NCBI GenBank assembly: GCA_012064415.1
Contig: SSNU01000145.1
Location: 111,474-175,473, forward strand
Reading direction: 5' to 3'
Length of the DNA stretch: 64,000 nt
Source: Gyrodactylus bullatarudis
Taxonomy: Eukaryota > Platyhelminthes > Monogenea > Gyrodactylidea > Gyrodactylidae
The notes below the pieces were generated by a model. That model was not told the origin of the DNA and did no database searches. It saw only the letters and a list, made by a program, of their open reading frames with translations. Shown here one piece after another: positions 32,556 through 57,597 of the stretch. Made by a program: the position numbers and the translations under genes. Each line of letters starts with the position of its first letter. Position 1 is the first letter of the stretch.

Positions 32556-32600
32556 TAATATGAAGATGGGAATTTATGATTTTTATAGAATTATTGAATC
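32556..32600 (+). repeat. Family 1 MITE, left arm stub
   Basis: ACTTAATATGAAGATGGGAA then TTTATGATTTTTATAGAATT is the family-1 arm. It is cut at 32600 by the IS630/Tc1-like element that starts at 32603, so the MITE is the older insertion. Confidence 0.6.
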
Positions 32601-32655
32601 TATACCTTTTGCAAGTCATTTTGAGAGAAAGTGTTGAAGAAACTGCTAGATAATA

Positions 32656-33245
32656 ACACTGTGTGTCAAAAAAAAATTTCCAAAAAAGTAATAGGGTATG
32701 ATCCATATGTTTTTGATCCAAAATTTCACGCTGATTCCAAATCTGGTCTCAGAATTTAAAAGTTGGGTTCAGTTTGGGAGATATTGAAGAAAATTGAAAA
32801 ATGAGAATTTTAGGAAAATTGAGAGTAATTTTTCGATTAAATTAATTTGAAAAAGCAATTAAACCTAAATATAATTAGGCTCATTATGTAGAGCAATTAA
32901 TTCTGCGTCGATTGGTATATAGATCAATGTCGCACCTACTCAGAACTGGCGAAAATTTTAAATAAGAACTTCAAAGGGTAGAAAAAATCATCGAAAAAAT
33001 CCATTAAAATTTACATTTAACAGAGACTCACGGCTTTAAAAAAATGAAATTTCATATTTTTCTTCAAGATTCTAGACTGAAATTTTTCGCTCTTTCGATT
33101 GAGCATACTTAAAAAGAAATTGGATTTCATCTTCTGGGTCAAATTGATCAGTTTTTATGTCCCGTTTTGTAATGGAAAATTAAAAAAAAATTGCATGCCT
33201 TTTTTGTAGCCAATCAGAATAGAGAACGTCGAAATAACCAATCAC
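32656..33245 (+). repeat. Left terminal inverted repeat (590 bp)
   Basis: Exact-looking inverse of 34946-35535. It contains AT-rich blocks such as ATTCTGCGTCGATTGGTATA and CGATTGAGCATACTTAAAAA and ends inward at AACCAATCAC. A repeat this long is unusual for Tc1/mariner-type elements. Confidence 0.9.
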
Positions 33246-33269
33246 AGCTCTGTATGAATAAAATAAACT

Positions 33270-34863
33270 TTATTTTTTACATATGATCCAACTAAAATCT
33301 GATAGGCAATGAACAATATTATCATCTTTATATCTTTCTTCGATAAACTCCATGTCTTGATGGAATTTTTCACCCTGTTCGTCTGATAATGCGCCTAAAG
33401 GGCCTTCAGGAAAAAGATCAATATGGTATTTGAAAAAGTGTAGTTTCAAATTCATTAGACATCCCAAGTTTTCATAAGAATTGATAAGCTCATTCAAGAT
33501 ATCCATTTCATTATCTGCACGATTATTTCCCAGGAAATTAATACAAACATTTTTAAAAGCGTTCCAACTTCTTAATTCATTTTCATTTAAATAGAGATCA
33601 AAGATATGATCATTCATGAGATCTCTTATATCTGGACCTTTCATGATTCCTTCATTGATTTTGGCACTCGATAGATAATAGAATTTTTCTCTCAAGTAGT
33701 TCATTGCATCTGATTCTGTTGAACATAAACGTTTGATGAACTGTTTAAATATTCCTAGTTTCAAATGCAAAGGAGGAAGAATAATATTCTCTGCATTGAT
33801 TAAAGGTGGTTTAATTCTATTGAAATTGATGGAGTAATCTCTCTCTGGTGGTAAATGGTCAGGTAAGTAATGATATTGTCTTTGTCGAGAATTCCAAAGA
33901 CATTTATAGCAAGGAAAGCTAGTGTTTCCTAATTGTAAACCACAGAGAAGAGCAATAACTTGAAAGTCTGCGACTACTTTCAATTCCAGCTCATAATAAT
34001 AGATTTTCCGTAAAATTAATTCCAAGGATTCATATGTTTCAGTGAGCTTTCTTGAATAGGCTATTGGAACAGTGGGATGAGAATTGTTGTTACTAATGAG
34101 GACACATTTAAGACTTATACTGTTAGAATCAATGAAAAGTCTTTCGTCTTGTAAGACGAATTCAAATCCGAGAGATGAATAAAGTCCTCTAATATCTGTA
34201 CAATATGCCAAGTTATTCTCTTCTTTGAAGTATTTCCAAAATTCTTCATCACGATTTCTGTACCTTGAGACGCAAATACGACCTGACTGCAAATTTGAAT
34301 TCATTAGTTGAGATAATTCGATCGCATTTCTCTTCGACAGAAGCAGTTTTCTAACTATATAATCCATGAGAGGCTGGTCCATATAGAGGTTTGGAGCTGG
34401 TCGGATATTTTCCCCATTAACATTATCGACACCAGGACTTTCTTCATTTTCTTCTATAACTAGTTGTTGAGGCCGTTCTCGATAAAAGTCTCTACTAGTA
34501 CGAAGATTTTGTGGATATATCTAAAAACTTAAAAAAAAATCTTACATGTTTGGCAGGAGTTCTACCTATTAAAACTCGAGTTAAACAGAAATAACATTCC
34601 TCTTCATGATTAAATGGCTCACACCAAAGCTTGATCTTATTCCTGGCAGAGTTGTTATGAGGATTCTGAACTTTGGAATAACAGGGAATACAAGCTTTTG
34701 TCGGAGTAAAATTCCGGTTGAATGGAAAGTTATAACTGAAATAGCCATTTATAACTAATTGGAAATCATCAGTTATTGGCATCATATTCTTCTGTCCGAA
34801 ATAATAACCACATATGTAACAGAATTTTGTAATATCATTTCTGCATTCAAAATTCCGGTTCAT
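33270..34863 (-). CDS. Putative DDE-type transposase of the SDEQGE-F-HQ family, two exons
   Basis: Exon 1 is 34863-34546 and exon 2 is 34520-33270, joined in phase 0 across a 25-nt intron (34545-34521, GTAAGA...TTTTTAG). The product is 522 aa. Exon 1 has a Cys-rich N-terminus: CYICGYYF, then ACIPCYSKV, then ECYFCLT, likely zinc-binding. The core (numbered from the Met at 34382) shows RLFIDS (Asp85), VADFQV (Asp139), a CYKC pair at 158-161, LPPLHLKLG (202-210), FLGNNRAD (283-290) and ALSDEQGEKFHQD (331-343). These blocks occur in the same order in large uncharacterised families in arthropods, cnidarians and molluscs. Asp85, Asp139 and Glu335 or Glu338 would fit an RNase-H triad; this is inference. 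No frame damage is seen. The stop codon lies within an AATAAA signal. The transposase role rests on the surrounding terminal repeats, not on a demonstrated homologue. Confidence 0.85.
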
Positions 34864-34985
34864 GAATATTTGGAAACGTTACGTGATAGGAATGAAATTT
34901 TTGATTACTAATCAAAAATATTGCATGACTCACTGAATGGTAAACGTGATTGGTTATTTCGACGTTCTCTATTCTGATTGGCTAC
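34864..34985 (-). promoter_or_regulatory. Putative promoter at the inner edge of the right terminal repeat
   Basis: Two inverted CCAAT boxes (ATTGG at 34949-34953 and 34977-34981, i.e. ACCAATCAC and GCCAATCAG on the coding strand) lie about 85 and 115 bp upstream of the transposase start. Both are inside the repeat. The left repeat carries the same boxes, so either end could recruit transcription. The function is inferred from motif and position only. Confidence 0.4.
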
Positions 34986-35535
34986 AAAAAAGGCATGCAA
35001 TTTTTTTTTAATTTTCCATTACAAAACGGGACATAAAAACTGATCAATTTGACCCAGAAGATGAAATCCAATTTCTTTTTAAGTATGCTCAATCGAAAGA
35101 GCGAAAAATTTCAGTCTAGAATCTTGAAGAAAAATATGAAATTTCATTTTTTTAAAGCCGTGAGTCTCTGTTAAATGTAAATTTTAATGGATTTTTTCGA
35201 TGATTTTTTCTACCCTTTGAAGTTCTTATTTAAAATTTTCGCCAGTTCTGAGTAGGTGCGACATTGATCTATATACCAATCGACGCAGAATTAATTGCTC
35301 TACATAATGAGCCTAATTATATTTAGGTTTAATTGCTTTTTCAAATTAATTTAATCGAAAAATTACTCTCAATTTTCCTAAAATTCTCATTTTTCAATTT
35401 TCTTCAATATCTCCCAAACTGAACCCAACTTTTAAATTCTGAGACCAGATTTGGAATCAGCGTGAAATTTTGGATCAAAAACATATGGATCATACCCTAT
35501 TACTTTTTTGGAAATTTTTTTTTGACACACAGTGT
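34946..35535 (-). repeat. Right terminal inverted repeat (590 bp)
   Basis: Inverse of 32656-33245 with no difference found by eye. The outer tip is GACACACAGTGT followed by TA. Confidence 0.9.
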
Positions 35536-35717
35536 TATTGCTTTCATCATAAAGATATACAAAATGGAGTATAAAAGTAATGTAATCATATAGAAGTGTA
35601 TGTACAACAGTCCATCCTGATGTATAATTAATGGTATGACGGATTAATAAACAGTACTGTGACTAAAAAATAACTCAAATCAAAAAGAAAGTTTATAATT
35701 CAATTCGAGAGCATTAT

Positions 35718-36043
35718 TTATTCTATTAAACCTTGTTTATTCATTATAATAGGAAAATATTTTTCAATATGTACGGCACATTGAGAAATTTTAGCGGGGG
35801 ATATCTGTCGTATAGCTTGTTCAGCCCCAATTTCTAAAATTCTCATGTTGTATTCACATTTGGAAGATAACCTCCAATTCTTGAATTATCAATAATGTCC
35901 CCCCTCTTGGTAGGGGTAAATCATTTTCAGTACGAACGCAACGGTAGGATGTGGAATAAGGAACATCAGACATCTTGGCATATTCCCTCCAGTTACCACC
36001 GTTCCTATACAAGGCCAAAACTTTTTTTCTCACATTCTCATCA
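35718..36043 (-). pseudogene. IS630/Tc1-like transposase, internally deleted
   Basis: Minus strand. The first block (36036-35890) reads NVRKKVLALYRN then GGNWREYAKMSDVPYSTSYR and CVRTEN, a helix-turn-helix with the G-DW-x-A...TAYRW pattern of IS630/Tc1-type DNA-binding domains. After a frameshift near 35880 a second block reads ILEIGAEQAIRQISPAKISQ then CAVHIEKYFP, which resembles the C-terminal helix that follows the DDE_3 domain. The whole catalytic centre between them is missing. It is a deletion derivative, explaining the size of the outer element at 32603-36262. Family placement is by pattern recognition. Confidence 0.65.
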
Positions 36044-36269
36044 TGTTATGTCATCTTTCACTATCGTAGTAGACACAATGTCCTTAGAAAGTTTGAAAAA
36101 ATTAGTTTGAAAGCTTTAACCAATCAGGGTGAGTTTAACGTTTGACCTTAAAAATTTACGTTGAGACATATAAGTAAACCCCTCTTTTCACGACTTGCAA
36201 AATGAAAAAAATTATCTAGCAGTTTGTTCAACACTTTCTCTCAAAATGACATGCAAAAGGTATAGAGTA

Positions 36270-44981: not shown

Positions 44982-45212
44982 GAGAAAATATTCAATTTAG
45001 ATCATAAAATTTTTACAATTTGAATTTGAACATTTCACACTATATTACCCATAACAACAGACTTTTTTCAATTTATTTAGATTCGATTGTTATAATGCAT
45101 ATATTTATTGAATGTTTTAGCAAATTTGATACATTTTGAGAAAGGCTTATTAGCCAGCTTCCTTCTGAATTTACGAAATAATATCAGAAAATTTTAAATT
45201 CAGAACATTTCA
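44982..45212. promoter_or_regulatory. Divergent intergenic spacer of DNAL4 and the LARP-like gene
   Basis: 231 bp separate the two start codons, so both promoters (and both 5' UTRs) must fit here unless leader exons are further away. It is very AT-rich; TATAATGCATATATTTATTG at 45090-45109 is a possible core element but not distinctive. TTTAAATTCAG (45192-45202), about 10 nt before the LARP start, could be a splice acceptor for a non-coding leader exon. Confidence 0.35.
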
Positions 45213-46497
45213 ATGTCTTTGTTACATCTTCCTCCGGCGGCTTCTACTGATACTTTTGATGCCTTTCAAAAGCCTTTTATTATTTCCAAAGAAAGGTTGC
45301 TCTCTCAGTATTTTTCCGGAGAAAAGGATAGAAGAGATTTCAAAATTTGCTCAATGCTTCCAGATGGGTCTTGTTACGCTCCGGCTTCTCATCAAAATAA
45401 TAAATTCTTTTTATTCCATTCACGTCTGGCTTACATAAAACATTTCTTGAGTCATTATTTTTCCGATGAAAACCTGAAGTATGATAACTATTTGACTCAG
45501 AAAATGAATTCTCAAGGATTTATTTCCACTAAAATATTATTGGAATTTCCTCGTCTCTCAAGTATAAACGTTAACATTGACGAATTAATAAAGGCCATTC
45601 GACAACACCCACTTCTTAATTTATCGACGAATAAAAAACCGAATCTTTATCCAATGGTTGGCCGCAAGGATCGTTATCCAAACAGGAAGTTGAAAGAAAA
45701 TTATTCAACCTTACTTCCGCCGCCTGCTTCGATGATAATGCCAACGTTTTATTGTCCAATTTACAACCAGGCGATGATAAATCAGATTCCTCCTGATCAC
45801 GGGACTTCACAGGCACAATTTTTCTATTACCAGCCTCAGGTCATCTATGGTAAATTCAAAATTGCACCTGTTATCTCTATTATAAGATAAGAGTTGTTAT
45901 TGATTAGATTTTACTTTTTAAATCACATTTACTGAGTTTGATAATCTCAACACGTTAACAGTGTTTTTTCATTTTTTTTGTGTACTTTCAGCATGATTGA
46001 ATTAGTTCCTTGGCTAATTTCTCTTACGTGTAATTTTCTTATTTTTTTCTCTTTCAGGAAACTTTAATGAAATAAAAAACAACACACAAAAGGTTCATGT
46101 ACCATCAAATTACAATAGAAAATATTACAATGAATTTGTTAACTATCCCAACGAGTTCAAACGGAAAAACTACACCAAGGTTTGTCATCAAAATGTAATT
46201 CATCAACTTTACCATAAATTCTACGAGAGAAATTTTAATTAACCTTATTCAAATTGATTTTTTTCACAGCTCTATTCTCATTACATGTTTTTAATTATGT
46301 ATAAATTATTTCTAGGAGAGAAACCACATTCCTGATACAAATCTTAAAAATAGTAAGTGAGAGTCAATGAATTTTGTTAGCATGCCTAACTTTTCTCTCT
46401 AGATTTCAGTTTTAGCGGGAGGAGCAGTTCCAGTGGAATAGGAAGTGAATGTAGCAACACAAATTACAAAACTTTCAATTTTCTCACACCGATATGA
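45213..46497 (+). CDS. La-motif protein, LARP1-like, four exons
   Basis: Exons 45213-45849, 46058-46179, 46316-46352 and 46403-46497 join in frame (introns 208, 136 and 50 nt) to 296 aa. Residues about 72-138 form a La motif: YIKHFLSHYFSDENLKYDNY, LTQKMNSQGFISTKILLEF, then INVNIDELIKAIRQHPLL. HYFSDENL and the x-M-x-SQGFI block are diagnostic. The sequence after it (GRKDRYPNRKLKENYSTLLP) recalls the basic tail after the La motif in LARP1. No RRM follows, arguing against genuine La or LARP7. The rest is low-complexity, rich in Pro, Asn, Tyr and Ser. The expected role is RNA binding and control of mRNA translation or stability. It is much shorter than animal LARP1 and has no visible DM15 repeats. 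It shares its upstream spacer with DNAL4 and precedes the RhoGEF exon by 481 bp. Confidence 0.85.
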
Positions 46498-46978
46498 GAA
46501 ATATGAGTGTCGGGGATTTTTACTTTTATATTTTGAAGTTTCCTTGTGGCAAGCTGCCACTATTTGCTTCATCCTATCAAGAGCGCCAATTATTTCTATT
46601 GTTCTTTCTATTGCCAAGATTTGCAATAAATTTTCTTGATTTGCAAATGTCACTCATTTAATCGAATTTCGAAACTTGTTTAGACTAGAAACTTTCTAAT
46701 TGATGATAATTTATTAATGTTTAGTAGAAATTCACTGTAATAGTGATTGTAAATCATTAAAATATTAGTTTAACTCATTTTCAAAAAAATAAAATTCATA
46801 TCAACGCTCAACAAATTTGTTTAAGTTTAAAAAAATTCAAGTTGTTAATTCTATGTTTTAATCAATCAGCTTACATCAATTTTATAGAGAAGAGATTTAA
46901 ATCCACTTTATGCAAAAATATAATTCCGACTCAAAATTAGATGATAATAAGTTTATTCTTTTTAGAAAATAAACAGAA
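46498..46978. other. Intergenic region before the RhoGEF exon
   Basis: No coding sequence. TTTATTCTTTTTAG at 46952-46965, 13 nt before the ATG, looks like a splice acceptor, so a non-coding leader exon (or trans-spliced leader) is possible. Confidence 0.4.
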
Positions 46979-47636
46979 ATGGACAGCTCTTTCTATAAAA
47001 ATTTTGACGAAGAAGCTATAGCCAAGAATCCAGAGTTATTGCCATTATTAGAGTTGGTATCATCCGAGGAGAAGTACATTGAGAAACTGAGGCATGTTCA
47101 GGAAAATTATATAGTTATTACAGACAATTTTCAAAAAGAAAAAGTCACAAAGCAATCTGAACAAACTGCTCTTCCGATTCCCTCAAACACTCTCATTATG
47201 AAGTGGAGAATGATTTGGGCTAACTGGATGCAACTACTTCAATGGCATGAGATTTTTCTTCGGAAAATAAAGAATCACATTTTGCAGCATAATTTCAGAA
47301 TGATACCAGAACTATTCATTGCCTCAAATGCAAAGTTACGATCAATATACTCGAAATATTGTGAAAATTATAGAAAAGCAGTTCTCATTGTAAATGCACA
47401 CAAAGGATATTTTGAGTCACTCCGATTGTTCTACTCTGATCGTGAAGATATTGTCTCACATCTGATGCAGCCAATTCAGAGGATTATGCGTTATCACTTG
47501 CCCTTATCGGAATGCATTAAAATACTCCAAGACAGAATGCAATCAGCAAAGGACGAAGAGGAAGTTGAATATTGGATTGAGGCCGAAAAAGTGTGCCGGG
47601 AAATACCCAGAGATTCCCAACTCATTCTCGAAGTGA
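46979..47636 (+). CDS. RhoGEF (Dbl homology) domain exon
   Basis: An open first exon of about 219 codons ends at a GTGAGT donor; the reading frame would stop within the intron at 47653. It contains a near-complete DH domain: LPLLELVSSEEKYIEKLRHV (CR1, residues 21-40), central helices 75-150, and HLMQPIQRIMRYHLPLSECI (CR3, 161-180), followed by the terminal helix to residue 218. DH domains catalyse GDP/GTP exchange on Rho-family GTPases at the membrane or cortex and are nearly always followed by a PH domain. No PH sequence follows directly. A phase-compatible exon at 52819-52999 is the best candidate. The exact GEF subfamily is not recognisable. Confidence 0.85.
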
Positions 47637-48204
47637 GTATTATCGAGTTATAAGCCTAATGATTATATAGAAAAGTATTTTATTGAAATTACTCAAATTA
47701 TCACAAAATATAAGATGAGAGTTTGTCGAACAATATTGATCTTGTGAAATTATCTATTGAAATTTTCAAATATAATAATCTCGAATGCCTAATGGTAGCC
47801 TTTGGACTACTGCAGGAGTCTTTTTTACAAACATGTCAAGCCCTAAATTAATTCTCCGCGTAGGAGTGTTTTTACATTCTGATTTCTACCAAAACCTGAT
47901 AGGTCATCTTTGAATCTGAAATTTTGTTCAGTTATCATATTCATTCTTTAAGAGGTTTTACTATTTTGTTACTATCTCGAGATGTCTGACAAGAATCGGA
48001 GAAATTATAAAAGACTCTACAAAATTACATGTAACTAAGGACTGGCCTTAGAGCCTAGAGATCAAAGGTTAAGTGCCAAATTAGATTCTGTCAGACTCGA
48101 TAAGTAGGAGCCATGTTATCCTGAGCCAACCGTTCATTCACTGATTTCCGGTAAAATATAGAATAGAATTTTCTTTATTTAAAATAGTTCTCTGGTTCTC
48201 TGAC
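47637..48204. other. Probable intron sequence
   Basis: Follows the GTGAGT donor of the DH exon. No exon or repeat is recognised. Confidence 0.35.
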
Positions 48205-56867: not shown

Positions 56868-57597
56868 TCAATTGGGCCAAGGCAACTGCAAATCATGTAA
56901 ATGGTTCTTTTGGATGCATAAGTTAGGATCTTCGTTCATGATTAGAAACTTCTCCCGGATTTTTAGGTCTATAAGTTTGTCGTTTGGGCATTTGAATAAA
57001 ATTTTGAAATTTTCTTCACTTGCTTCACAACCACATTGCTCTAGGTGCTTTTTAATTGAGGAATTCTTTCTGTTGAGGTGTTCTTTTATCCTAACAGCTA
57101 GACGTCTTTGGGTTCTTCCTATGTATTTGGCTCCGCATGTAGCTTGGAAACTATAGATGAGATTTGATTGCTCAGATGGTTCTAGTTTATCTTTAAGCTG
57201 GAATTTGAATAGACTTGTGGTTTTGAATACAACCTTCAATTGTATATCATTATAATTTTCATTTACAAGTTTGGTCAATTTCCTTCTTAAATCATGACTA
57301 AAGCCATCTCCTTTGAACGATAATTTGACATAGATCCGGATGGTTTCATCATTTTGTTCCTCTTGAATATCTTCTTGGTTGTTTGCTTCATCTTCTAAAG
57401 CCTTTTCTATATATTTGCGAACAAAATTTTGAGGATATCCGTTTTCTCTGAGTCTTTCTTTTATCTCATCAATTTCTTTTAGGAATTCTTCCTCGCTGAC
57501 AATTCTCTTGGTCCTCTTGATTAAGCCAATAATTAAACCTGTTTTGTAACTTTTTGGACAGAAACTTGAAAAATGTAGATATTTTCCAGGAATTTTT
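56868..57597 (-). pseudogene. Penelope-like element: RT C-terminus plus GIY-YIG endonuclease, best copy
   Basis: The minus-strand frame is open from 57597 to the stop at 56868 (about 242 codons). It begins with the end of the reverse transcriptase thumb (KYLHFSSFCPKSYKTGLIIG, LIKRTKRIVSEEEFLKEID), a linker (IYVKLSFKGDGFSHDLRRKL), then the endonuclease: LIYSFQATCGAKYIGRTQRR and RLAVRIKEHL. It closes EDPNLCIQKNHLHDLQLPWP. The endonuclease keeps the YIG half-motif and the downstream Arg and Glu-His, unlike the copy at 6 kb. Upstream of 57597 a stop and an unrelated repeat (CTCTAAAACTAGTTATCTTC, also at 23625) replace the RT core, so the copy is 5'-truncated. The family normally nicks DNA with this endonuclease to prime reverse transcription. 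Confidence 0.85.

Follow-up and report, generated by a model that had tools for sequence, protein, structure and literature searches.

A transposon between identical inverted arms

The window analysed here is the whole 64,000 nt stretch of the Gyrodactylus bullatarudis genome at positions 111,474 to 175,473 of contig SSNU01000145.1 (GenBank assembly GCA_012064415.1). RNA polymerase I subunit 2 of this genome comes closest to that of the monogenean Cichlidogyrus casuarinus (64 %), followed by those of flukes and tapeworms (54-60 %), which points to a parasitic flatworm, probably a monogenean. It contains a DNA transposon with long terminal inverted repeats (arms) and one gene for a predicted transposase (Table 1). 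This is very likely a Chapaev3 cut-and-paste transposon of 2,878 bp with 589-bp arms, two predicted exons and a RAG1/Transib-like transposase predicted to cut at CAC and to insert at A-TWA-T (W being A or T). An original prediction, made from the sequence alone, had described inverted repeats of 590 bp without a difference. Arm-to-arm alignment of 32652-33245 with 34946-35539 gave 100 % identity over 594 nt, but comparison of copies placed the outermost 5 bases of each repeat in the flank, leaving 589 nt inside the element, and set its ends at the CAC at 32657 and the GTG at 35534.

A single gene lies between the arms on the minus strand, with its ATG 82 bases inward from the right arm and its stop 24 bases inward from the left arm; no second gene was seen inside the element. 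The gene had been described as open throughout, but its frame is split by a predicted intron. An Rfam scan of the window gave no match.

Table 1. Features of the transposon and its flanks (positions in the window)
Feature	Position	Strand	Remarks
Left terminal inverted repeat	32657..33245	+	Tip CACTGTGTGTC; identical to reverse complement of 34946-35534, 589 nt
Right terminal inverted repeat	34946..35534	-	Tip GACACACAGTG; identical to left arm
Left TWA target copy (TAA)	32654..32656	+	Preceded by A at 32653
Right TWA target copy (TTA)	35535..35537	+	Followed by T at 35538; middle base unlike that of left copy
Predicted transposase exon 1	34546..34863	-	106 aa; putative Chapa-like N-terminal zinc domain: C15, C18, C58, C61, H86, C90, C93
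Predicted intron GTAAG...TTTAG	34521..34545	-	25 nt; inferred from frame and full-length homologues
Predicted transposase exon 2	33270..34520	-	416 aa and stop; RNase H-like DDE core
Left flank, part of older element's terminal repeat	32599..32654	+	This transposon inserted into the older element
Right flank, interior of same older repeat family	35537..35835	+	94 % to C360:307111-307410

Copies in the genome and target duplication

A search of the genome (77.3 Mb in 471 contigs) for the arm repeat, as the original prediction had proposed, found other copies, with at least 45 matches (40 of 186 candidates scored). The exon 2 protein gave at least 115 matches with identities from 100 to 29 % (111 of 302 candidates scored). 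Many of the arm and exon 2 matches were partial copies or copies carrying stops. Five of the 115 protein matches (the window copy, C119:355724, C252, C428:114435 and C138) were stop-free and ran from residues 1-2 as far as residues 367-370 of the query (370 aa); among these five, the first exon was looked at in the window copy only. Loci L065 and L067, from another, related family, were identical over 2,591 columns (~2.6 kb) at different places with different flanks, which indicates recent movement in this genome. The copies and this identical pair bear out the view that this is a DNA transposon of recent date with a single transposase gene.

The target duplication was read by a script requiring A-TWA|CAC...GTG|TWA-T in eight copies with both tips. 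Seven carried the same TWA on both sides (TAA in L013, L017, L065 and L067; TTA in L015, L023 and L066), and two further copies read by eye also agreed, at C23:264420 (TAA) and C110:171399 (TTA). The duplication is thus perfect in 9 of 10 paired copies. The window copy, with TAA on the left and TTA on the right, is the sole exception and counts against the assignment proposed here. Only the W base was counted as evidence, as the outer bases may reflect target choice; agreement of W in at least 9 of 10 copies has a probability of 0.011 by chance. Copies with damaged tips (L008, L011, L012 and C413) and the inner second pair of L023, which lies within the arm, are not in the count of ten.

All ten paired copies, the window copy included, have 5'-CAC...GTG-3' termini, as do the single tips of L016, L019 and L025. 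An A before and a T after TWA were found in the two pairs read by eye and in 8/8 scripted pairs, where the pattern required this context; it was also present, on the side seen, at the unfiltered tips of L003, L005, L006 and L026. The duplication is 3 bp long, neither the 5 bp of Transib proper nor the TA of Tc1/mariner. The original prediction had read TA on both sides as the target duplication. The other copies rule this out: TA is the common part of TAA on the left and TTA on the right, and nine other two-tip copies duplicate the whole TWA. The paralogous sites GATAATTG hinted at a duplication of AT alone (2 bp), each tip having an additional base; this was rejected on the agreement of W between sides in other copies. 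The unlike W bases beside identical arms in the window copy possibly reflect a later substitution or arm-to-arm copying across the shared AATWACAC.

Two distant relatives of the protein (29 %), at C119:89432-90235 and C119:98859-99662, had equal scores and overlapped copies of the repeat that flanks the window element; they perhaps represent a nested or duplicated block.

The predicted transposase

Homologues of the transposase are widespread in animals and are labelled uncharacterised or hypothetical wherever the source gave a name, in agreement with the original prediction. An alignment took in 51 of 60 hits (excluding P0042, P0046, P0048, P0051, P0053, P0057, P0058, P0060 and P0061). Columns conserved in the family are D, D, C-x2-C, LH, H-x4-H and E. 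In the 522-aa window protein these correspond to D237, D291, C310-x2-C313, L357-H358, H467-x4-H472 and E487/E490, so the C(2)C, LH and H(4)H motifs of Chapaev3 transposases are present.

The predicted fold of the core (AlphaFold2 model) was nearest to RAG1/Transib structures (e.g. PDB 6pqx and 6xnx), and the model has a RAG1-type RNase H core with a split C2/H2 zinc site (RAG1 residue numbering follows PMC4914335). PDB titles among the fold matches include 'hairpin forming complex'. For the N-terminal domain the best PDB match was RAG1, with an E value of 9.6e-4 with a 7-sequence profile and 0.42 with a 52-sequence profile. The transposase gave no RING domain match and its core no sequence match in PDB. 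A fold search of viral models gave 0 matches at E ≤0.001 (best 0.064).

Assignment to Chapaev3

The assignment was made against published descriptions of ends, target and motifs. According to PMC4079192, the hallmarks of Chapaev3 elements (Merrow, Garfield and Conan) are CAC/GTG tips, a TWA duplication invariably preceded by A and followed by T, and the C(2)C, LH and H(4)H motifs. The Chapaev3 identity is very likely because these hallmarks are all found here, save the imperfect TWA of the window copy. The length of the window transposase (522 aa) falls among the 461-562 aa of the six full entries in Table 1 of the same source, which gives 556 aa for Garfield_BM. Merrow and Garfield are likewise described there as two-exon genes, although their exons encode 77-78 and 477-484 aa, compared with the predicted 106 and 416 aa here. 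In PMC4411706, Chapaev3 is placed in a Transib superfamily with RAG1 and shares the Chapa zinc domain of the RAG1 N-terminus, a link that the predicted fold and the weak N-terminal match would fit. The same source gives typically 5 bp for Transib duplications, in contrast to the 3-bp TWA found here. The window element further differs from Transib and RAG1 in a core with no detectable PDB sequence match, in the lack of a RING match and in having no second gene seen inside.

The original prediction could name no superfamily, and had added that a match to a known one with the same ends would make the element a described one; in substance, Chapaev3 is such a match. The transposon is sound as an observation and ordinary in kind, the kind is already described, and no new superfamily is opened. 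Literature searches turned up no report of Chapaev3 in monogeneans among the titles listed, which has no bearing on papers beyond those consulted.

Several observations weigh against the assignment. No recognised Chapaev3 transposase was compared directly, and none so labelled was among the matches. The core matched no Pfam model in a scan that included 52 family members. At the N-terminus the resemblance to RAG1 is weak, with an i-E of 0.031 for the best single stretch and the E of 0.42 with the larger profile; zf-AD is also close (E 0.061), and Pfam zf-AD was found in 8/52 members (best 6.8e-5; below the Pfam cut-off in the one displayed). Some Transib chains scored no better in the fold comparison than P element transposase (6pqr 13.2, 6pqn 13.1 and 6pqy 12.7 versus 12.8). 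The six published Chapaev3 entries (Merrow, Garfield, Conan; PMC4079192, Table 1) can fit at most 240-383 bp per arm, a bound obtained as total length minus coding with introns ignored, whereas the arms here are far longer. PMC4079192 lists a copy in a bracovirus, yet a single scan of viral contigs turned up no relative.

A new DNA transposon superfamily with a TA duplication would accord with a core lacking any Pfam or PDB sequence match, and with the TA that flanks both window tips if the outer A/T is assigned to the element. It is very improbable in view of the TWA in 9/10 paired copies, of ends, target and motifs equal to those published for Chapaev3, and of a predicted fold like that of RAG1/Transib. 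In PMC4079192, TWA lies between A and T in all Chapaev3 examined, while Chapaev in general has 3- to 4-bp duplications. This argues against a clade beside Chapaev3 (e.g. Chapaev proper or an unnamed sister) with the same target and ends. Such a clade would suit the longer arms and the comparison of named transposases by description only, and appears less probable still. Harbinger elements duplicate TWA, but a PIF/Harbinger-like element is scarcely credible given the CAC/GTG tips, the fold nearest RAG1/Transib and a transposase that contradicts it: between them the 52 members matched 11 Pfam families (E up to 0.1), and DDE_Tnp_4 is not one of these.

With the Chapaev3 assignment, a widespread protein family whose core lacks a Pfam model joins an already described group of transposons that is related to the V(D)J recombinase. 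RAG1 is the enzyme that assembles antibody genes. The small genome of this animal supplies copies with exact ends, some recently moved, that would suit the testing of RAG1-like transposition without RAG2.

Arm length and proposed mechanism

Among the better-kept copies, arm length was 389 plus 98 bp in L023, 541-548 bp in L065-L067, 543 bp in L017, 622-625 bp in L016/L021, 718 bp in L015 and about 890-900 bp in L012/L013. Arms of these copies run from about 400 to 900 bp. Very long inverted ends are also found in Galileo (P superfamily) and long-terminal-inverted-repeat Mutator-like elements, which have a different transposase and a different target duplication. Shorter arm matches (41-499 bp) at 13 loci (L010, L011, L014, L019, L020, L024, L025, L028, L031, L032, L033, L035 and L038) may be decayed, truncated at the end of the locus or genuinely short. 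When the first 330 bp were compared, arm modules at ~64-98 and ~236-263 aligned in four of five families, the exception being L065. A third module (517-552) had short matches in seven other loci, irrespective of position there. To judge from sequence, these modules may be binding sites for the transposase or a promoter.

By analogy with its relatives, the putative Chapa-like zinc domain at the N-terminus would assist in binding DNA or partner proteins, and the transposase would pair the element ends as RAG1 and Transib do. The RNase H-like core would nick beside CAC using D237, D291 and E487 or E490. RAG1 and Transib make hairpins, and the flanking DNA would perhaps be hairpinned here too. Joining of the freed ends to an A-TWA-T target with a 3-bp stagger would yield the TWA duplication, and the long arms may hold binding sites inward of the tip. 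A speculative extension, which we consider rather unlikely, is a flatworm burst of Chapaev3 amounting to stripped-down, still moving RAG1s (a Chapa domain and RAG1-type core with no RING or RAG2), in which the arms have grown to 400-900 bp, harbour a further tier of recognition modules and stay identical because one arm is copied onto the other. If true, such copying would also explain an overwritten TWA in the window copy.

Empty sites, flanks and neighbouring features

An older, abundant element, with the terminal repeat TATACCTTTTGC...CTAGATAAT, surrounds the transposon, which lies at that repeat's inner edge. Other copies of this flanking repeat continue without an insertion, though the junction varies locally in length: GATAATTG with 8 hits, GATAATTATAATTG with 7 and GATAGTTG with 1 (some loci overlap). 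Of the empty sites that had been called for, paralogous insertion-free sites were therefore found for the flanks, but none was base-exact for the window copy: a search for the predicted site GATAATWATTG gave ten matches, all with 2 or 3 mismatches. The variant GATAATTATAATTG could be read as a hairpin-type excision footprint (flank TAA, palindrome TTA + TAA) but equally as a tandem duplication of ATAATT, and was not used.

Paralogous sites of L013 had a gapless junction with a single TAA in 3/3 aligned, with homology stopping 4-12 bases beyond, which lends modest support to TWA. At L015 the repeat family runs across the junction, and 3/3 aligned show local indels. Empty-site queries of L023 and L065 returned their own flanks and otherwise only partial matches.

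A copy of the older flanking element at L051, part of which reads N, has a reading frame with NPIEKVW..., which we take to resemble Tc1/mariner-type transposases. A further inverted copy of the 56-bp flanking terminal repeat lies 3.6 kb off, at 36211-36266 of the window (96 %). Elsewhere in the window are open frames at 45198-45890, 46973-47653 and 56868-57596, presumably, as judged by eye, La-related protein-like, RhoGEF domain-like and a GIY-YIG-like nuclease, respectively.
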